Position numbers and translations under genes: made by a program. A stretch of 64,000 nucleotides of DNA. Source: Robiginitalea aurantiaca (GTDB lineage: Bacteria > Bacteroidota > Bacteroidia > Flavobacteriales > Flavobacteriaceae). The notes under the pieces are model-generated. The model did no database searches, was not told the origin of the DNA, and saw only the letters and a program-made list of their open reading frames with translations. Positions 37,547 to 53,076 of this stretch are shown here, one piece after another. Positions within the stretch are counted from its first letter, which is position 1. Each line of letters starts with the position of its first letter. The stretch covers positions 248,001 to 312,000 of the forward strand of contig NZ_JAUDUY010000001.1 of the NCBI RefSeq assembly GCF_030380815.1. Reading direction: 5' to 3'.

Positions 37547-40500
37547 TTAATCCTTCTCAGGATCGTTCGGGTCAAAACCCACGGGTCTTTTCCAACGCAT
37601 AGGGGCTGCGGGTTCCTTTGACATTTCAAAACGTTGGGTTTCCAAAAGTCTTAACGCCTCTGAAATTCCGCGCTCCAATTGAGGATCATGGCCTTTGATC
37701 ACTGCGGCGGGTTCCTGTATGACTTCAATATCCGGCGCGACGCCTTCTCCTTCGACAGCCCATTTTCCATCTACATCAAAGAAACCGCCTCTGGGGGCGA
37801 CCATTCTGCCGCCATCGATAAAAGGTGGGGTGTCCCATGTCCCGACCAGACCTCCCCAGGTCCGCGTGCCGATCAGGGGTCCGAGTTCTTTCGCATGAAA
37901 CATATAGGGAAGCAAGTCCCCTCCGGAGCCCGCCCGTTCATTGATCAACATTACTTTCGGCCCCCAAATTCCCGCCATTGGGGTTGTCCAGGGTCGGTTG
38001 CTCTCGGTTTTGCTGTTAAAGTATCCAAAGAGCTCCCGGTCCATAATGTCGATCATATAATCTGCAGCAAACCCCCCTCCATTATTGCGTTCATCGATGA
38101 TCACCCCTTTCTTGTCCTGTTGGGAGAAATAGTACCGATTGAAATACTCAAAGCCTTGCGAGGAGGTATTGGGAACATACACATAGGCGAGCTGTCCTCC
38201 GGAGATACTGTCTACCTTACGCCGATTTCCCTCTACCCAATCGAACGTTCGAAGCCCGTATTCACTGGTGACCGGTTTGACCACGATTTCCCTTGGGGAT
38301 TTCCCGTCCGCTGAGGCACTGACGGTCAGGTAGATTTCCCGTCCTGCAGTTTGTTCCAGCAAAGCGTACGGGTTCATCCCGGCAGTAAGCTCCGTTCCAT
38401 CTACAGCGATAATATAGTCCCCTTCAGAAACATTGAGACCGGGGAGGGCGAGGGGTGCATACAGGTCCGGATTCCATTGTTCGCCAGAATAGATGCGATC
38501 CAGGCGATACCGTTCCTGATCAACTTTAAAATCACATCCCAGTAAGCCTACAGGGACCCGGTCTACATCCGGTTGGTCACCTCCGGACACATAGGAATGT
38601 CCTATGGCGACTTCCCCACTCAGTATATCGACCAGGTAATTGAGGTCTGTCCTGTGGCGTACGTGTTCCACCCATGGGGAATACCACTGATAAACGGCAT
38701 CCCAGGGAGCGCCGTGTACATTGTCAACATAAAGGAAATCACGCATATAACGCCAGCCCTCCCGGAAAATCTGACGGTACTCTTCGGTTGGCCTTATTTG
38801 AAGTTGTATGGAAACTTTAAGGGGTTTGGCATCGGTGGCGTCCTTATTCTTTGTCTGTCCGACTTTCCAGTCGGAGTTTTGTCGGAACAGGATGTTATCT
38901 CTGGAGTCCGAAACCACAAAGCTTTGGACGCCTTCTGCAAATGCGTTGGCCTCCAATTTTTCAACATCGTATTTATGAAGGGTCAAACCCGTATTGTTAG
39001 GAATGTTCTCGCTTATAAAAATGCTGTTTTCCGGACCTGCCACCAGGGCTGTGTAATTCCGGGCCGGCAGGGGAAGACCGACGATTCGGCTTTGAATTCC
39101 CTCCGGATCCAGGGTGACGGTAATCTTTTTTTCACCATCCCCGGATTCCCCTGCTTTGGCAGTTTTCGATTCGGTGTCTTCATCTGAGGAAGCGATCTCT
39201 GCTTCATCGCTTTTTGGGAGATTCGGAGCCGAACCTTTCCCGGACAGAACAATGGCGTATAGGCTTCTGGAAAAAGGGATGTTCAGGGAACTCATGTCCA
39301 GCCATCCGGATTGGAGGGCATAATCTGTACTGGCAAGAAAGTAAAGGTATTCCCCTCCGGCATCCCAGGAAGGACTAAGTGCATCTGCCATACCATCGGT
39401 GAGCTGCACCGTATTCCCGCTCGTAATATTATAAGCAAAGATGGCCTTGAAATGACTGTCGAGCTGTTTGGCATAGGCGATCCATTTGCTATCGGGCGAC
39501 CAGACCGGATTCATTGCCCGATTCGGATGTGCATACCCATCCGTGGCGATCTTTAGGGTTTTACCATCAGCCAGGTCGATCACCCATATGTTGTAGTGGG
39601 TGTCGGTATAGGCGATATACTTTTCATCCGGAGACCAGGTCGGCCGGAAATAAAATGTAGGGTCCGGGAGGGCATAGCTTCGCTCAATACCGCCTTTCTG
39701 GTCGGCAACCACCAGTTCATATTCTCCCTTGGCATCCCGGAACCAGGCGACGCTTGAACCTCCAGGTGACCAGACCGGAGCACGATCTGCAATGCCTGAG
39801 GATTTTGTCAGATTCCTCCAGCTGCCTTTGTCTACCGGTATACTGAATACCTCTCCCCGATGTTCGAACAAGGCGCGTTTTCCGTTAGGGCTCAGGCGTG
39901 GATTCTGCAGGTCACTACCATCTACCGTTTCCCACCTGGGACGCGCAAAATTCATATCTCCTTCCACGGTGATGCTGACCTGTTGCGTACTACCCGTTTC
40001 CGGATTCAGAATATGCAGGTAACCGCCCTGTTCATATACGATGCCCGATGGCCCGTCATCGAGGCTTTTTACATCGAACTTTTTGTGGAAGGTGTGTTGC
40101 GTCTCCGTTTTCGATGTGGGGTCATAAGACCAGATGTTGGCGGCGTAGTCCCGTTCTGAGATATAGTAAACCTTCCCGCCGTACCAGACAGGATCCAAAT
40201 GGCGTTCTTTATCCTTCTGCGGGGTCCGTTCCAGTTCCATGGTCTTCATATCGACAATCCATATGGGCATGGCCTGGCCTCCCCGATAATTTCGCCATTC
40301 CGGATCCCAGGAGGTAATCGGAGTATAAGCGATATGTGTGCCGTCAGGGGAGAATGCTCCGTAGGCCGCCCTGGGGAGAGGAGTGGGCTGTGGCAGCCCC
40401 CCTTCGAGTCCTATGAGATATAACTTGCTCATTTGGGTGGGGTGTGCCTTCCTTTGAGAGCGAAACAAAACCTTTCCATCAGGTGTCCAACCCTGAACGA

Positions 40501-47240: not shown

Positions 47241-47260
47241 CGTCCTCCAAATGGAGACAT

Positions 47261-47334
47261 TCCTCCTTAGCTCAGTTGGTTAGAGCATCTGACTGTTAAT
47301 CAGAGGGTCCTTGGTTCGAGCCCAAGAGGGGGAG
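47261..47334 (+). tRNA. tRNA-Asn(GTT)
   Basis: The cloverleaf is complete: acceptor TCCTCCT with AGGGGGA, D arm GCTC/GAGC, anticodon arm TCTGA-CTGTTAA-TCAGA with anticodon GTT, and T arm CTTGG-TTCGAGC-CCAAG. The discriminator base is G and no CCA is encoded. Its 3' 42 bases, plus one following C, form the left repeat of an integrated element, so the functional 3' end is now supplied by the element. Confidence 0.95.
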
Positions 47335-47335
47335 C
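47293..47335 (+). repeat. attL: 43-bp direct repeat within tRNA-Asn
   Basis: The 43 bases from CTGTTAATCAGAGG to AGGGGGAGC are identical to 53034-53076. They span the anticodon loop to the 3' end of tRNA-Asn, the usual target of tyrosine integrases. This copy lies inside the intact tRNA gene. Confidence 0.92.
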
Positions 47336-47346
47336 CCAGTAAACAT

Positions 47347-47384
47347 AAAGCTTCAGCGAGTCTCAGACTTCTGAAGCTTTTTTC
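47347..47384 (+). terminator. Terminator after tRNA-Asn, supplied by the element
   Basis: AAAGCTTCAG (47347-47356) pairs with CTGAAGCTTT (47371-47380) and is followed by a run of T. It takes the place of the original tRNA terminator now displaced to 53081-53108. Confidence 0.75.
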
Positions 47385-47386
47385 AT

Positions 47387-47406
47387 TTGCAAACATTTTG
47401 CAAACA
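47387..47406. repeat. Left pair of TTGCAAACA repeats (candidate integrase arm sites)
   Basis: TTGCAAACA occurs at 47387-47395 and 47398-47406, an 11-bp step. The same pair occurs near the right end at 52907-52926 in the same orientation. Tandem sites at both ends of an element are typical arm-type binding sites of tyrosine integrases. Confidence 0.6.
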
Positions 47407-47654
47407 CCCCAAATTTTAACAGTTTCACCCCTTTTTTCTTGTTCTCCAAGGCTTTGCCGTATCATTCCCCGAGTCAATTCAAGAGCACTTTTTTAACCCA
47501 AATCTTACCAAAACTTGCCTGCTTGCGAAGGCAATCATTTAGAGAAAAATCCATTTTTTATCATAATTATTTGCTGATAATCAGCACGTTAAGGCGCTTT
47601 TGTCATAAAAACGAGGTTCTCAGGATTGCATATTACATTGTAACAAACAGAAAA

Positions 47655-47714
47655 TAAGCGGATTATGATTTAGTAACCGGCGGTAGCCGGTTACCCTCTT
47701 GCTTTATCCGCTTA
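47655..47714. repeat. Nested inverted repeat upstream of the cassette recombinase
   Basis: The outer arms TAAGCGGAT (47655-47663) and ATCCGCTTA (47706-47714) enclose an inner perfect stem GTAACCGGC-GGTA-GCCGGTTAC (47673-47694). Further out, TTGTAA and CTACAA are also partly complementary. The shape recalls the cassette attC-like sites, but the ends do not obey the same core rule. Confidence 0.55.
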
Positions 47715-47803
47715 CGCTCCTACAACGCTATATTTTGATATTCGAGGGTGGACAAATCCACATTTCTGTTGCAGAGTTATTGCAGTGCAAGCGATTAAAT
47801 TTT

Positions 47804-47817
47804 ATGGATATATCCAT
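47804..47817. promoter_or_regulatory. Palindrome at the recombinase start
   Basis: ATGGATATATCCAT is a perfect 14-bp palindrome ending two bases before the ATG at 47820. Its position suits an operator or a translational hairpin controlling recombinase expression. There is no direct evidence of a binding protein. Confidence 0.4.
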
Positions 47818-47819
47818 CC

Positions 47820-48944
47820 ATGTTAGAAAAGAGCATTACACTAAAACATATTTTAGTTGGGGATAAACGTTCCATAGGGCTTCAATTCAGAGCGGACCGT
47901 GTACTTGTTGCCCTTGTGGAACGATTGCCCGAGGTGGGGTGGTCGGATGAATTCGGCATGTATTTCATTCCCAACAGTCGAGATAACATTGCTTTGATTT
48001 TTAAAACTTTCAAAGGCATCGCCTGGGTAAATGGGAATTACTTCTTTGGTTCCCGGCCTCTCCCAACCAAAAACAATTCAGAAAAGTTCAAACAAACCGA
48101 GCATCCTACGCCTGTGAGTCGTCCGAGTATATGCCCACAGAATTATTTGGATAAACTGGAACTAAAGCAATACTCCAAAAACACAGCCAGGATCTATATA
48201 GCCTGTTTCGAGAAGTTCATGCGCTTTTTCGAAGGAATATCGCTGGCTCAAATCGATGAGAATGACATACGGGATTATTTACTTCACCTCTCCCGCTCGA
48301 ACAGATCTACCTCTTACATCAACCAAGCAGTAAATAGCATTAAGTTTTATTATGAGGTGGTTCTGGGTATGCCCAATCGCTTTTACAGTATCGAACGACC
48401 CCGGAAAAGGAAGAAGCTGCCCGAAATTCTGTCGGTAGCCGATGTTCACAGCCTCCTTGCCCAGGTTGGCAATCTCAAGCATCGCTGTATACTTGGCCTA
48501 CTGTATTCTTCAGGATTAAGGCGGGCTGAATTGTTGGCATTAATGCCTGCAGACCTTGATTTTAACCGCAAGATGGTACGGATTCATAAGGGGAAGGGCA
48601 ACAAGGATAGGTATTCTATTCTCAGTGAAACACTGATCCCTGAACTGATGGAATACCTCCACCGCTATAACCCGGATCATTACCTGTTTGAAGGCCCAAA
48701 TGGAGGTCCATATTCGGCTAGCAGTGTTTTAAAGGTTGTGAGCAGGGCAGGGGTAAGGGCGGGAATTCGTAAACACGTAACTCCGCATATGCTACGGCAT
48801 AGTTTTGCCACTCATTTGCTGGACAAAGGGGTAGATCTTCGGAAAATCCAGGTGCTATTGGGACATAATTCAAGTAAGACCACTGAGATTTATACACATG
48901 TAGCTGAGCATTCCTTCAAAGGTATTGACGATTTGCTATCTTAG
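47820..48944 (+). CDS. Tyrosine recombinase of the integron-like module
   Basis: The 374-residue protein has an N-terminal domain of about 95 residues not seen in XerC/D or IntI ([40 protein letters not shown]). It is followed by a SAM-like core-binding domain (about 110-195) and a catalytic domain. Catalytic residues are visible: Arg in SSGLRRAEL, Lys in HKGKGNKDR, HxxR in [12 protein letters not shown], His in [10 protein letters not shown] and Tyr in EIYTHV. The insertion between the beta-hairpin and HxxR regions that defines integron integrases is absent. The gene ends directly at an attI-like site and points the same way as the cassettes, unlike class 1 integrons. I infer that it moves the cassettes. 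Confidence 0.85.
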
Positions 48945-48995
48945 GCCTATAAAGGATATATAGTGCATAATGCACTATACACATACGTTACCTGC
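48945..48995 (+). other. attI-like insertion site
   Basis: Immediately after the recombinase stop codon there is a hairpin TATAGTGCA-TAA-TGCACTATA (48961-region) followed by ATACACATAC and the core GTTACCTGC (48987-48995). The last nine bases are the exact complement of GCAGGTAAC at 50501-50509. The site has no matching 5' core of its own, as expected for an attI rather than a cassette site. Confidence 0.55.
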
Positions 48996-50579
48996 AAGCA
49001 AAATATCCAATGAAGCACCTAGCCATTCTGTCTGTTTTCACTATTGCACTTTTAATGAGTTGCCAATCAAATCAAGTTAGAATTGGCCAGAATGACTTCG
49101 CCATTCAGAAAGTAAACATAGTCGATGTAAAAACTGGTGAACTACATGAAAATAGGACTGTAATCATTAGTGGGAATAAAATCAAAACCATCATTCAAAC
49201 AGATAGTATTAGCTTATCTGGTATTGGCAAATTAGTCGATGGAAGCGGAAAGTACCTTATCCCAGGTCTCTGGGACATGCATGCTCATTTATTCAATGAG
49301 TCTGATATCAGGAATGCCGGTTATCCTCTTTTTATTGCCAATGGCATTACCGGTATTAGGATAATGGCCGCAGATTGCCTTAATCCGCCGTGTGGAGATC
49401 CGGATATGACTATTGCTCAGTACAGAATATTGCAGAAGGAAATCAAAGAAGGAAAGTTACTGGGTCCCAAAACCATTTTAGCAAGTGACTATATTAATGG
49501 AACTTTAAAGGGTGAATCTACGGTGCTTAAACCCAAGACCGAGGAGCATGGAAGACAACTGGCCAGATTGCTTAAAGACCGTGATGTCGATTTTATCAAG
49601 ATATACGATGTGTTGACATCTGAGGCCTATTTCGGCCTTACCGATGAAGCGAAAAGACTGGACCTCGAATTTGCCGGCCATGTACCCCTTACTATTAGTC
49701 CCTCCATAGCCTCCGATGCCGGACAGAAAAGTATTGAACACACCGAAATTCCTTTGTTTATGGAGTGTTCGGACATTGAACATGAAGAAGTTAGGGCCAG
49801 AGTAATCCATTTATTCACCAATCAGCAGGGTGAATTGGGCTATTGGAACGCAAAAAACGTGAATGAATTGATGTACGAGTTGGTAAAATCATTTAACTCA
49901 CAAAAATGTCATGAACTCTATGAGAAATTCATAAGAAACAATACCTGGTTTGTACCCACTTTACAGCATTTGGAAATCTATTTCGATGGGGCAGAAGACT
50001 GGAAACTAGACCCTAGAATGAAGTATATGCCCAAGGAAGAATACGATTTTTTTAAAGATGAATATGAGCCGGTCATGCGAGAATTTCGCAGTCCTTTTAT
50101 CCCGGAGGTAGAAGAAATGCGAAAACGATTGGTGTTTGAAATGCAAAGAGCCGGGGTAGGCATTCTGGCCGGGTCTGACGTGGGTGAAGTCGGGCTTGTC
50201 TGTGGATTCAGCCTGCATGACGAGATCTTAAGCCTTCAAAATGCTGGCTTGACTCCTTTGCAAGCGCTGCAATCCGCAACCATAAACCCGGCAAAGTATC
50301 AGAATACTACAGATACAATAGGTAGCATTGAAAAAGGTAAAATTGCAGATCTGGTTTTACTGAATAAAAATCCACTTGAGGATATAAAGAATACACAGGA
50401 AATTGAAGCGGTATTTACCAATGGCAGGTACTTTAGCCGAAAGGATTTAGATTCCTTACTACTATCGGTAGAAAACTATATTAAGAATGAAAATTAGCCA
50501 GCAGGTAACAATGTATATAAGCCATTATTCCGATAGCTCCCGACAGCTGTCGGGACGGGATGGCTCATATACGAGACCG
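48988..50579 (+). mobile_element. Gene cassette 1 (amidohydrolase)
   Basis: Taking recombination between G and TT of the GTTxxxx core, this 1592-bp unit runs from TTACCTGC to the G of the next GTTAGGCGC. It contains one gene with little spare sequence on its 5' side and an attC-like site on its 3' side. Its two ends are 9-nt perfect complements, as required if it circularises. Confidence 0.65.
49010..50497 (+). CDS. Amidohydrolase-family lipoprotein, cassette gene
   Basis: The 495-residue product has a lipoprotein signal (LLMSC, Cys18) and an amidohydrolase (metal-dependent TIM-barrel) domain. KYLIPGLWDMHAHLF near residue 90 holds the first metal-binding HxH, VDFIKIYD and LEFAGHVPLTI are the next conserved strands, IEHTEIP holds a further His, and ILAGSDVGEVG near 390 the metal Asp. 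It ends with the typical IEKGKIADLVLLNKNPLEDI. Substrate unknown; imidazolonepropionase-like or peptide/carbamate hydrolase labels are guesses. It fills cassette 1, and its stop lies 3 bp before the attC-like site. Confidence 0.85.
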   Translation: MKHLAILSVFTIALLMSCQSNQVRIGQNDFAIQKVNIVDVKTGELHENRTVIISGNKIKTIIQTDSISLSGIGKLVDGSGKYLIPGLWDMHAHLFNESDIRNAGYPLFIANGITGIRIMAADCLNPPCGDPDMTIAQYRILQKEIKEGKLLGPKTILASDYINGTLKGESTVLKPKTEEHGRQLARLLKDRDVDFIKIYDVLTSEAYFGLTDEAKRLDLEFAGHVPLTISPSIASDAGQKSIEHTEIPLFMECSDIEHEEVRARVIHLFTNQQGELGYWNAKNVNELMYELVKSFNSQKCHELYEKFIRNNTWFVPTLQHLEIYFDGAEDWKLDPRMKYMPKEEYDFFKDEYEPVMREFRSPFIPEVEEMRKRLVFEMQRAGVGILAGSDVGEVGLVCGFSLHDEILSLQNAGLTPLQALQSATINPAKYQNTTDTIGSIEKGKIADLVLLNKNPLEDIKNTQEIEAVFTNGRYFSRKDLDSLLLSVENYIKNEN

Positions 50580-50587
50580 TTAGGCGC
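50501..50587 (+). repeat. attC-like site of cassette 1
   Basis: The 5' core GCAGGTAAC, a 3-nt spacer, then GTATATAAGCCAT (50513-50525) pairs with ATGGCTCATATAC (50560-50572) with one mismatch. A 6-nt spacer and the 3' core GTTAGGCGC (50579-50587) follow. The loop contains a perfect CCCGACAG/CTGTCGGG hairpin. This is the layout of integron attC sites: imperfect stem, unequal spacers and a GTTRRRY 3' core. Confidence 0.7.
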
Positions 50588-51639
50588 AATGTAACAAAAC
50601 CATAATCTCTTCGTCTTCCATAAACAAACCATTATTAAAACCTTATGCCAGAAAATTTATCGGAACGAAAAGAAACTTGGAAAACAATCTTTCTATTTCT
50701 TGCAATCGTTATTCTTCTTACTTCACCTTTTCATTATGCCATAGTTAATTTATATCCATCACGAATATATGTTGGAGCTATAATGTGGTGTCCTGCAATT
50801 GCTGCATTTATTACCTTAAAAATAAAAGGTCGTAAGATTTCATCTCTAAATTGGAATTGGGGAGATTGGAAATACATTCGATTGTCTTATTTTATTCCAG
50901 CTTTAGCTGGTATAATTACCTATATACTCATCTGGATTTTTGGATTTGGAAATTTAGCAAATGCAGATGTTATTACTGAATGGGCTAAAGAACTTCAATT
51001 AATGGGAATAGGAACTTTAGACACCATACCTATTGTAGTAATAGCCATACTCTTGTTAGGAACTGTTGAAGTTATTAGATCAGCCGCAACCACTTTAGGA
51101 GAAGAAATTGGATGGAGAGGTTTTTTTATTTATGAATTAAGAAAAGTGCTTTCTTTTACAAGTGTTTCTGTTTTTAGTGGAATTATTTGGGCAGCTTGGC
51201 ATTGGCCGTTGTTCGTTTACTATAGTAATAATGCAATATTGGAATTTTTAGCCTTTTTGACTACTTGTATTTTTATGTCGTTTACTATGACATACTATAC
51301 TTTTAAATCTAAAAGTCTCTGGCCAGCAGTAATTTTCCACGCAGTAAGTAATGTTTATATACAAAAAATAATGCCTCCTTTAACAACAAAAATTGAAGGA
51401 ACAGAACATTGGCTTGGAGAAAATGGAATTATGTTTACAATTGTTACTTGTGTTTTTGGAATTTACTTTTGGAAAAAAGCAATTAAAGAAAAAATGTAAA
51501 TAAAAACACAGCGCCTAACAACGTGTATATTTAATTGCTAGGTTCTCGCCTACTTGGAAATTCCTTCGGAATTTCCTCTGGTTCGTTTTCTTTTACTAAT
51601 TTAGTTGCTAGCCAACGCAACTAACCATACACGAACACG
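50580..51639 (+). mobile_element. Gene cassette 2 (CPBP protease)
   Basis: This 1060-bp unit begins TTAGGCGC and ends at the G of GTTGAAA. Its 5' end with the preceding G (GTTAGGCGC, 50579-50587) is the exact complement of GCGCCTAAC at 51511-51519. It carries one AT-rich gene in the same direction as cassette 1. Confidence 0.65.
50645..51499 (+). CDS. CPBP-family intramembrane metalloprotease, cassette gene
   Basis: The 284-residue polytopic membrane protein has about eight hydrophobic segments and all three CPBP (Abi/Rce1-like) motifs: LGEEIGWRGFFIYELRK (EExxWR), IIWAAWHWPLFVYY (with the catalytic His) and IFHAVSN. Such enzymes cleave membrane proteins or prenylated peptides. In bacteria some act in immunity to bacteriocins or in regulation. 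The coding sequence is clearly AT-rich compared with the flanking chromosome, which suggests a different origin. It lies within cassette 2, with a 57-bp leader after the cassette junction. Confidence 0.85.
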   Translation: MPENLSERKETWKTIFLFLAIVILLTSPFHYAIVNLYPSRIYVGAIMWCPAIAAFITLKIKGRKISSLNWNWGDWKYIRLSYFIPALAGIITYILIWIFGFGNLANADVITEWAKELQLMGIGTLDTIPIVVIAILLLGTVEVIRSAATTLGEEIGWRGFFIYELRKVLSFTSVSVFSGIIWAAWHWPLFVYYSNNAILEFLAFLTTCIFMSFTMTYYTFKSKSLWPAVIFHAVSNVYIQKIMPPLTTKIEGTEHWLGENGIMFTIVTCVFGIYFWKKAIKEKM

Positions 51640-51647
51640 TTGAAAAC
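51511..51647 (+). repeat. attC-like site of cassette 2
   Basis: The 5' core GCGCCTAAC (51511-51519), a 3-nt AAC spacer and GTGTAT form the left arm. Near the right end ATACAC (51628-51633), a 6-nt spacer and GTTGAAA (51639-51645) form the other. GTGTATNNTTANTTGC on the left matches the complement of the right arm at 13 of 16 positions. The centre holds GGAAATTCC-TTC-GGAATTTCC. The 3-nt versus 6-nt spacers repeat those of the first site. Confidence 0.65.
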
Positions 51648-51659
51648 TACTGCGCTAGT

Positions 51660-52883
51660 CTAAATTGCATCCACCAGCTTTTCATTATATGCATCCAGAA
51701 CGTCCGTTGGAAGTGATTTAAGATAGATTTGTGTCGTATTCAGTTTGCTATGACCCAGCATCGCTGAAATAGCCTGCAGGGGGATGTTTTGAAGCATGGC
51801 ATGGGTCGCAAAGCTGTGCCGTGAGACATAGGTGGTCAGTCTATGCCGTATCCCACACAGTGCGGCTATTTCTTTCAAACCTCTGTTGTAGCGGTGGCGC
51901 TCCCAGTCGATATCCTTGTACTGATCTTTCAGGGAAGCCCGATTAATTACGGGCAGGATGAATTCTCTCTCAGATTTTCCGTCTACATAGTATTCGAGCA
52001 ACTCCCACAAAGCGTCCGTAATCTTTATGTTGTAGTGTTTCGAGGTCTTTTTACGCCTCACCAGAATACGACCTTCTACAATATTCTCTATTTTCAGGAA
52101 GCACATATCTACAAAGGACATTCCATAGAGCATATAGGAGATCAAAAAATAATTCCTGTAATGGAAGAGTTTTGTTCCCACTTCTACTTTGAGTGCCATG
52201 ATCTTGCTAAGACTTTCGGCATCCAATGCCCTCTTGGCAGTTGGAGTCATTCGGATCTTGTAATGAAAAAATGGATAGGCCTCTCTTTCAATATACCCTT
52301 CCTTGATGCCTCTGTTGTAGATGGCTTTCAATACACGCATATAGGAGGCCACCCCGTTTAGTGTATTGCCTTCCTTGGAAAGATGGAATTGCTCGAACTT
52401 CCTGAGGAAATCGTAATTGATCTCGTTAAATCGAATGTCCCTTCCCTTGCTAAATACACGAAGTATCCCAATAAGTCCTGCATAGGACCGGGCAGTACCG
52501 AATCGTTGCGAGGCATTGAGCTCCTCAACTTTCTCATCGCCAAATGCCAGGAAGGAGTCAAAATTCTTTTTACGAGAGATCCGTTCGCGCACCTGATTGA
52601 TAGACATATAATCCAACACTCCCCGGTCGAATAGCTTGTTTAAAACATCCACCATTCGTGTTTTCTCCTTGAGCAATAAATTGTTTATCCGGCTCACGTG
52701 GCGAGAACCAGGCCAGGAGGTTTTGATCTCTGATTTTCGAACATCCCAATAGGCAGGATGTACTGAAAATCCCGTGGTGATCGAAGTGGTTTTTCGATGG
52801 TGGGTGAGGCGAAAAACTATGGGATAGGACCCGTCTTTTTTCTTCCTTCTCGTATCTTGTAAAAGGCTTAAAAATGTCTTCAC
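51660..52883 (-). CDS. Tyrosine integrase of the tRNA-Asn element
   Basis: From a GTG at 52883 the protein has 407 residues and begins KTFLSLLQDTRRKKKDGSYP, the arm-binding domain start typical of Bacteroidota integrases. A SAM-like core domain follows (about 100-205), then the catalytic domain with [19 protein letters not shown] and the Tyr nucleophile. Near residue 256 the segment GMSFVDM has Ser where most tyrosine recombinases have the first catalytic Arg, as described for IntDOT of CTnDOT. The more upstream ATG at 52916 overlaps the TTGCAAACA repeats and is unlikely. It lies about 150 bp inside the right attachment repeat and is the likely enzyme for excision and integration. Confidence 0.88.
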   Translation of the reverse strand: MKTFLSLLQDTRRKKKDGSYPIVFRLTHHRKTTSITTGFSVHPAYWDVRKSEIKTSWPGSRHVSRINNLLLKEKTRMVDVLNKLFDRGVLDYMSINQVRERISRKKNFDSFLAFGDEKVEELNASQRFGTARSYAGLIGILRVFSKGRDIRFNEINYDFLRKFEQFHLSKEGNTLNGVASYMRVLKAIYNRGIKEGYIEREAYPFFHYKIRMTPTAKRALDAESLSKIMALKVEVGTKLFHYRNYFLISYMLYGMSFVDMCFLKIENIVEGRILVRRKKTSKHYNIKITDALWELLEYYVDGKSEREFILPVINRASLKDQYKDIDWERHRYNRGLKEIAALCGIRHRLTTYVSRHSFATHAMLQNIPLQAISAMLGHSKLNTTQIYLKSLPTDVLDAYNEKLVDAI

Positions 52884-52906
52884 AAACCAGAAGGTAGTGA
52901 AAAAAA

Positions 52907-52926
52907 TTGCAAACAATTTGCAAACA
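52907..52926. repeat. Right pair of TTGCAAACA repeats
   Basis: TTGCAAACA at 52907-52915 and 52918-52926 repeats the left pair with the same 11-bp step and orientation. It sits just upstream of the integrase gene, so binding there could also regulate integrase expression. Confidence 0.6.
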
Positions 52927-53033
52927 ATTTGGTGATATCATTTGGATTCAATTGATGACAAATATTATGTAAATATCAGAAAATGAGAATTATATGAAGG
53001 ATTTTGTAATTATCAATACCTCCCTGGCCGAGG

Positions 53034-53076
53034 CTGTTAATCAGAGGGTCCTTGGTTCGAGCCCAAGAGGGGGAGC
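53034..53076 (+). repeat. attR: 43-bp copy of the tRNA-Asn 3' half
   Basis: Identical to 47293-47335. The bases before it do not continue the tRNA, so this is the partial copy left by site-specific integration. The original chromosomal terminator follows directly. Confidence 0.92.

Follow-up and report, generated by a model that had tools for sequence, protein, structure and literature searches.

How can a tyrosine recombinase without the insertion that marks integron integrases come to stand at the head of what look like gene cassettes? The excerpted text of PMC4792948 describes the I2 insertion in the catalytic domain of integron integrases, which accommodates extrahelical bases, as not identified elsewhere, and an excerpt of PMC3053210 states that the polarity of canonical attC sites is given by the extrahelical bases of the folded bottom strand. 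Here, we analysed a stretch of 64,000 nucleotides from Robiginitalea aurantiaca (Flavobacteriaceae; hereafter the window), in which a recombinase gene of this kind is followed by two genes, each with an attC-like hairpin behind it. The features of the locus are collected in Table 1, in which R1 denotes our covariance model of the hairpins.

Table 1. Features of the recombinase locus and its island, in window coordinates
Feature	Position	Strand	Basis or remark
tRNA-Asn (GTT)	47260..47338	+	ARAGORN
43-nt direct repeat, copy 1 (3' part of tRNA-Asn)	47293-47335	+	identical to copy 2
Tyrosine recombinase without I2 insertion (putative cassette recombinase)	47820..48944	+	374 aa
Extra N-terminal domain, codons 1-95	47820..48104	+	predicted folded core ~residues 1-76, AF2 mean pLDDT 89
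attI-like palindrome, TATATAGTGCAT A ATGCACTATACA	48957..48981	+	behind recombinase stop codon
G|TT, putative crossover of attI-like site and start of cassette 1	48987..48989	+	sequence; cassette starts of relatives
Cassette 1, amidohydrolase gene 49010-50497	48988..50579	+	R'/R'' pair GTTACCTGC / GCAGGTAAC
attC-like site 1, 78 nt from R'' to G|TT	50501..50581	+	R1 40.7 bits
Cassette 2, CPBP/Rce1-like membrane protein gene 50645-51499	50580..51639	+	R'/R'' pair GTTAGGCGC / GCGCCTAAC; copies elsewhere
attC-like site 2, 128-nt class	51511..51641	+	R1 97.5 bits
Second tyrosine recombinase, Arm-DNA-bind_5 + SAM_5	51660..52916	-	Pfam; presumed tRNA-Asn island integrase, from position
43-nt tRNA-Asn repeat, copy 2	53034..53076	+	other island end

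The reading frame of the recombinase is intact and open throughout. Pfam assigned SAM_4 to residues 108-183 and Phage_integrase to residues 208-363, with ~105 residues preceding, and R234, K259, H323, R326, H349, and Y358, which we take to be the expected active-site residues of a tyrosine recombinase, are invariant or nearly so in the family. When the protein was compared with the integron integrase 2a3v, the unaligned stretch measured 21 residues (282-302) in the recombinase vs 64 (183-246) in 2a3v, which bears out the proposal of a first-pass annotation of this DNA that the IntI insertion is missing. That annotation had also described the stretch before the HxxR motif as short, as in XerC/D, and an extra domain at the N-terminus, and both descriptions hold: the distance from GLRxxE to HxxR is 91 in the window protein and 91-92 in 95 of 99 family proteins, compared with 96 in Xer (the pattern being measurable in one of five), 92-98 in IS91-side relatives (measurable in all seven), and 133 in canonical IntI (measurable in only three of 12), and the N-terminal domain is present with a predicted fold (Table 1). 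Among protein family models, TIGR02249 (integron integrase) scored 198.4 bits, below its cut-off of 265, and NF040815 (XerA-like) 232.9 bits, above its cut-off of 220, while the XerC and XerD equivalogs TIGR02224 and TIGR02225 were both far under their cut-offs (195.9 vs 335.15 and 195.4 vs 329.6 bits). The AF2 model of the whole recombinase (mean pLDDT 86) aligned with IntI 2a3v at Z 22.5 (rmsd 2.7, 267 of 317 residues), with XerH at Z 21.3 (rmsd 3.6), and with XerA at Z 24.7 and an rmsd of 15.1 over 265, a value that probably reflects a domain shift.

In the window, the two-cassette unit lies inside a 5.7-kb island between the 43-nt tRNA-Asn repeats (47260-53076), whose other open reading frames are the amidohydrolase, the CPBP gene, and the SAM_5 integrase, with no transposase among the four island genes. 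Five nt past the palindrome, cassette 1 starts with G|TTACCTGC; the amidohydrolase unit ends with GCAGGTAAC, the reverse complement of its own start, and the hairpin opened there ends in G|TTAGGCGC; the CPBP unit in turn ends with GCGCCTAAC, which opens the next hairpin. A search of the whole 64 kb with R1 at E 1 returned exactly the two expected sites, and Rfam at E 1 returned the tRNA and four sub-threshold matches. The recombinase is transcribed towards the array; canonical intI genes were found in both orientations, away from the array in L303 (10 chained cassettes) and towards it in L297 (two), so direction is not diagnostic. As a candidate for serving the cassettes, the island integrase (51660-52916) was set aside, as the attI-like sites sit behind the other recombinase. 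Separately, a tRNA-Asn lies ~490 bp before the recombinase in L037, the closest relative, and a tRNA-Met ~560-610 bp ahead of it in L084, L087, and L096.

The same order recurs in relatives of the gene, where each cassette has G|TTRNNNNN at its start and, at its end, the reverse complement of that start, which opens an attC-like hairpin. Of the 38 loci that could be tested (a GTT close to a palindrome follows the gene, with at least 400 bp downstream), 33 contain an exact match to the predicted cassette end, compared with 119 of 7433 permuted 9-mers (1.6%). A strict palindrome followed by GTT lay behind the gene in 34/54 clade-A loci vs 1/1080 shuffles; among the 20 loci that failed this strict test, inspection by eye shows the site, with palindromes that are imperfect, in several but not in L050 and L061. 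Where at least 700 bp of downstream sequence was available, chained cassettes followed the gene in 36 of 46 clade-A loci, two or more of them in 24, and of the ten loci without a chain the two that were searched, L044 and L048, hold R1 sites. Chaining over 101 loci yielded 200 cassettes in 56 of them (median length 782), and many of the other 45 were ended by the contig end or had no site behind the gene. In more distant members, at ~35-48% identity, the attI-like sites differ as judged by eye (ATATAACNAGTT among them), and the longest chain comprises 11 cassettes. Two loci, L038 and L096, were excluded from the protein set for internal stops. In nine of 55 clade-A loci (L037, L039, L042, L052, L062, L067, L080, L083, and L085), contigs end 700 bp or less behind the recombinase, as would be expected if repeated sites break assemblies.

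How often homologues stand beside the stem-loop sites, a count that the first-pass annotation had proposed, is thus answered by a chained cassette behind the gene in 56/101 loci overall and in 36/46 clade-A loci. Homologues are therefore not consistently unlinked from the sites, although some members do without adjacent ones. No attI-like site was found behind the gene in L124, L125, L128, L136, and L157, nor in L153, L158, L160, and L162. The first five belong, with L123, to a basal branch of six in the family that is mostly without sites behind the gene; in L123, inspection by eye points to a possible cassette start, and the loci of L124 and L128 contain R1 sites at other places.

The sites share a common build. 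Over the 200 cassettes, in which pairing at positions 0-8 of the cassette ends is given by construction, pairing beyond 9 nt extends to positions 11, 12, and 13 in 174, 187, and 152 cassettes, respectively, and to position 14 in 41. At position 10, A on the start side faces C on the end side in 173/200 cassettes, a combination found in 0/16 cassettes of a canonical control taken from four loci around canonical IntI genes. Site lengths are 123-133 in 154 cassettes, 60-78 in 10, and 182-196 in 24, and the 12 sites outside these three classes may be misjoined. The lengths near 60-78, 127, and 190 are roughly multiples of 63 nt, and the loop sequences vary widely. In a hairpin alignment of 49 bottom-strand sites (A2; L055:8730-8861, a row of the 50-row alignment A1, was left out as misjoined), the L stem comprises 16 pairs, of which 13 show two-sided, pair-keeping changes in at least one site, and G.U is kept at two pairs (41/49 and 48/49 sites). 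In the consensus fold of these 49 sites, the L stem lacks any conserved extrahelical base, its pairing being continuous apart from an optional single-base bulge column that is filled in 11/49 sites, and the internal loop is lopsided, with 3 nt vs 5-7 nt (alignment columns 135-137 and 4-10).

Predicted folding is asymmetric between the strands: alifold over 112 sites gave -35.4 for the bottom vs -22.6 for the top strand, and among sites folded singly the bottom strand was more stable in 190/196. The non-pairs of the R stem comprise 207 top-A.C vs 6 top-G.T and 132 of other kinds, and the bottom strand folds better because the conserved G.T pairs there are A.C on the top strand. The canonical control leans likewise, if less clearly (7 top-A.C vs 1 top-G.T and 22 others, with the bottom strand favoured in 13/16 sites), so the G.T lean itself is not new; what distinguishes the flavobacterial sites is its fixation at particular positions. 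Since the recombinase lacks the insertion and the L stem lacks a conserved extrahelical base, site recognition should differ from that of IntI, in support of what the first-pass annotation had expected.

Cassette 2 offers a view of mobility, as its CPBP gene has DNA matches in other genomes (73-93% identity in the better ones). In nine other CPBP loci, the BLAST alignments begin between query positions 3 and 10, where position 10 is the G of G|TT; GTT stands at the aligned place in eight of the nine and three bases further on in L287. The upstream flanks of the nine loci differ, and most end like an attC L box (by eye); in L284, R1 sites lie at both cassette ends. The copies in L286 and L288 start at G|TT behind sequence unlike attC or the attI-like site, and may be insertions at non-attC places. 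Were the hairpins only terminators or dispersed intergenic repeats with no part in recombination, they would be expected between genes, as they are, and many matches to the window cassette do cover the hairpin part alone, at other places. Such a reading is nevertheless highly improbable, as R'' of each hairpin matches the start of its own cassette, a match that a terminator does not need, and as homologous cassettes start at G|TT. Taken together, the chains, the covarying hairpins, and the homologous cassettes starting at G|TT indicate that the recombinase very probably moves the cassettes, as the first-pass annotation had supposed.

Across genomes, sites and recombinase were compared in 299 evenly drawn genomes of Flavobacteriaceae, of which 103 have a homologue at the search threshold of E 1e-60 or better and 261 have R1 sites at E 1e-4 (229 of the 249 genomes of good quality), numbers of sites per genome being lower bounds with 11 candidates scored in each. 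Sites occur in 101/103 genomes with a recombinase match and in 160/196 without one at 1e-60, and the latter figure lends some weight to the idea that another enzyme (XerC/XerD of the host, the integrase of the island, or an IntI at another place) moves the cassettes, with the recombinase only riding along. A profile of the family was searched in 30 site-rich genomes, picked because they had been missed at E 1e-60, and 20 of the 38 site-free ones: every one of the 50 had matches, mostly scoring 140-218 bits and taken for XerC/XerD, enzymes on which that idea could draw, but members of at least 290 bits, a threshold chosen once the score gap from 218 to 294 bits was known, were present in 23/30 site-rich vs 3/20 site-free genomes (Fisher p 3e-5), which argues against mere riding along. 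Seven of the 30 are without a member of at least 290 bits (G041 has only a 218-bit fragment), and in seven of the 23 with a member the best one (L153, L157-L162) has no site behind its gene, so linkage is looser in the genome than at the locus. These seven genomes, and the SAM_5 integrase at the other end of the array in the window, again speak for another enzyme; against it, the attI-like site and the first cassette start lie directly behind the recombinase in many clade-A loci, and an IntI elsewhere finds no echo in the search with an IntI1 query, which matched 70/247 genomes of the phylum as drawn by GTDB (E 1e-45), none of them marked as same family. We consider it unlikely that an enzyme other than this recombinase moves the cassettes.

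The family profile, searched across the phylum, matched 79/247 genomes at E 1e-80, and the equal-size draw made with it lists 27 same-family genomes. Given the IntI1 matches in 70/247 genomes, the phylum is not devoid of canonical integrons, but none was seen in Flavobacteriaceae. TIGR02249 gave no match over the 299 family genomes and was equally silent in 14 control genomes, and is hence uninformative. Canonical IntI homologues outside Flavobacteriaceae reach 56% identity to IntI1 (e.g., in L303 and L297). On viral contigs, the best relatives of the recombinase among the matches listed have 43% identity over residues 107-362 and are without the N-terminal part. The Chryseobacterium plasmid NZ_CP041688.1 carries a 36%-identical relative annotated as "site-specific tyrosine recombinase/integron integrase", which is the name of NF040815.

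Regarding descent, a quick tree of 97 rows resolved IntI (12), Xer (5), and IS91-side recombinases (7) as separate clades (SH-aLRT 100, 99, and 98) and the recombinase family as one clade of 66 (93, not starred). The comparison with other recombinases that the first-pass annotation had envisaged thus sets the family apart from IntI, Xer, and the IS91-side proteins in the quick tree, but stops short of separating it from IntI by descent, as IntI and the family as one clade are not rejected (p-AU 0.474). This last result would suit a canonical integron whose divergent IntI lost the insertion and whose sites are ordinary attC, and so would the ways in which the two systems work alike: in canonical integrons (class 1, VchIntIA) as here, the recombinase gene adjoins an attI-like site by sequence, each cassette has one hairpin site with paired R'/R'' and a G|TT boundary, and the bottom strand folds better (the 13/16 canonical sites noted above lean the same way). 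The differences weigh on the other side, and we judge such a loss within an ordinary integron improbable. The IntI and family clades are separate in the quick tree and the TIGR02249 score is below cut-off; the flavobacterial recombinase is without I2 and, in most members, has the extra N-terminal domain; and its sites, lacking the conserved L-stem extrahelical base expected of ordinary attC, have the conserved A/C (bottom G.T) at position 10 and the two L-stem G.U instead. Further, the 12 loci around canonical IntI genes (210 kb), four of which gave arrays that were kept, contain no R1 match at E 0.1. By the sequence features tested, the system is integron-like, and it fails the IntI score, the I2 insertion, and, on the consensus fold, the extrahelical bases.

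The N-terminal domain was the part through which, according to the first-pass annotation, folded sites might be recognised. Residues 1-85 of the window protein matched no Pfam family at E 1; over 52 members, HARP was matched in one (E 0.07), DUF5710 in three, and DUF7397 in six (best E 8e-4), and four N-terminal fragments gave only sub-threshold Pfam matches, HARP in one. Alignment A4, used as a profile against PDB sequences, found nothing below E 0.17, and Foldseek gave no match at E 0.001 (best E 0.04-0.13), with YciH at rank 1 and eIF1-type proteins recurring, and with archaeal XPB chains and the HARP domain of SMARCAL1 (rank 4) at ranks 2-7 (E 0.06-0.16). VIA gave Z 6.4 for T4 UvsW, 6.0 for XPB, 5.4 for eIF1-type proteins, and 3.9 over 49 residues for HARP, to be read against best Z values of 7-8 that are typical even without a clear match. 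UvsW, XPB, and HARP are DNA-remodelling helicase domains, from proteins acting on branched or damaged DNA. In L117:3284-4459, two tandem copies of the N-terminal domain motif are apparent by eye, the second with a sub-threshold Pfam HARP match.

That this domain replaces I2 and recognises the folded site would be in keeping with structural neighbours that include T4 UvsW, archaeal XPB, and SMARCAL1 HARP, and with the two copies in L117, but all fold scores are weak, the first-ranked Foldseek neighbour is YciH, and the domain and the sites do not always occur together. The relatives L119, L120, and L122 are without the domain, and nine chained cassettes, all nine with A/C at position 10, follow L119 (whose genome, G159, additionally encodes a clade-A enzyme), while R1 matches lie downstream of L120; L124 and L125 carry the domain though no site lies behind the gene. 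Since L119 and L120 have sites without the domain and L124 and L125 show the reverse, the domain is not the general key to the sites, its proposed role is not supported as a general answer, and we regard the replacement of I2 by this domain as doubtful. It may help to hold folded DNA and be dispensable in some members.

In our assessment, the recombinase probably serves as integrase in an integron-like system that does not pass the tests for the IntI family. In such a system, a cassette would consist of a gene plus one attC-like site. In the circular cassette, the end (NNNNNNAAC ...) would pair with the start (G|TTNNNNNN), as the ends of circular integron cassettes do, so that the single bottom strand could fold into a hairpin whose R stem (~13 bp) and L stem (16 bp) are separated by a lopsided internal loop. 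At G|TT, the recombinase would link this folded strand with the attI-like palindrome downstream of the recombinase gene; new cassettes would therefore enter in first place, and others would leave or shuffle by attC x attC exchange. The strand would be chosen through the conserved G.T pairs of the stem (A.C on top) and the lopsided loop, in place of the extrahelical bases read by I2. The window would present a case in which a two-cassette unit is carried on a tRNA-Asn island.

Other tyrosine recombinases share parts of this picture. XerC, XerD, XerA, and XerH have the SAM and catalytic fold without the insertion, and NF040815 accepts the window protein; they differ in that the XerC and XerD equivalog models do not and in that the tree places the Xer rows apart from the family. 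Xer proteins are not known to have such an N-terminal domain or to head cassettes. The IS91-associated recombinases, so called from what we presume to be the identity of the neighbouring transposase, are related, of similar length, and without the IntI insertion, but they form their own clade, and the window's island is without such a transposase. Finally, in CTXphi, as PMC4792948 describes, XerCD integrates on a folded strand. There too a recombinase without I2 meets a folded site without extrahelical bases, but CTXphi is a phage genome borrowing host enzymes and has no cassette arrays.

How does this system stand against known integrons of the phylum? The accessible text of the IntegronFinder 2.0 paper (PMC9024848) recalls an earlier study that found only In0 elements in Bacteroidetes and counts one complete integron in Bacteroidetes proper, in Salinibacter ruber, besides Chlorobi and Ignavibacteriae; elsewhere in the literature, in excerpts that give no detail, Bacteroidota are listed among the phyla with integrons. 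The open-access literature, as distinct from subscription journals and preprints, which lay outside the search, yielded no description of the flavobacterial system, whose novelty is likely, not certain. On balance, and with much reserve, we favour the view that Bacteroidota have a second class of integron, widespread in Flavobacteriaceae, with an integrase without I2 and attC sites whose strand is set by G.T pairs; as part of the same guarded reading, I2 would either never have been present in this integrase or have been lost. If true, cassette recombination would have arisen independently in the second class, or the class would survive from a pre-I2 stage. If the system works in the way outlined, much cassette traffic in these bacteria may be overlooked, because tools look for IntI and canonical attC. 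Further, as I2 accommodates extrahelical bases (PMC4792948, in the excerpt cited), a natural pair of enzyme and site without both makes an open question testable, and would show what else sets strand and direction.

Beyond the island, the window's own genome holds further R1 sites, four of them in G000:C33:446264-459762 (L004, L290, L292, L294, and L295), headed by a recombinase fragment of 48% identity with an internal stop and the same orientation; these are probably a second, decayed array. Two more lie at C44:106136-107102. Within the window, away from the island, a 39-nt repeat occurs three times at 39470-39778 with a spacing of 135 nt.
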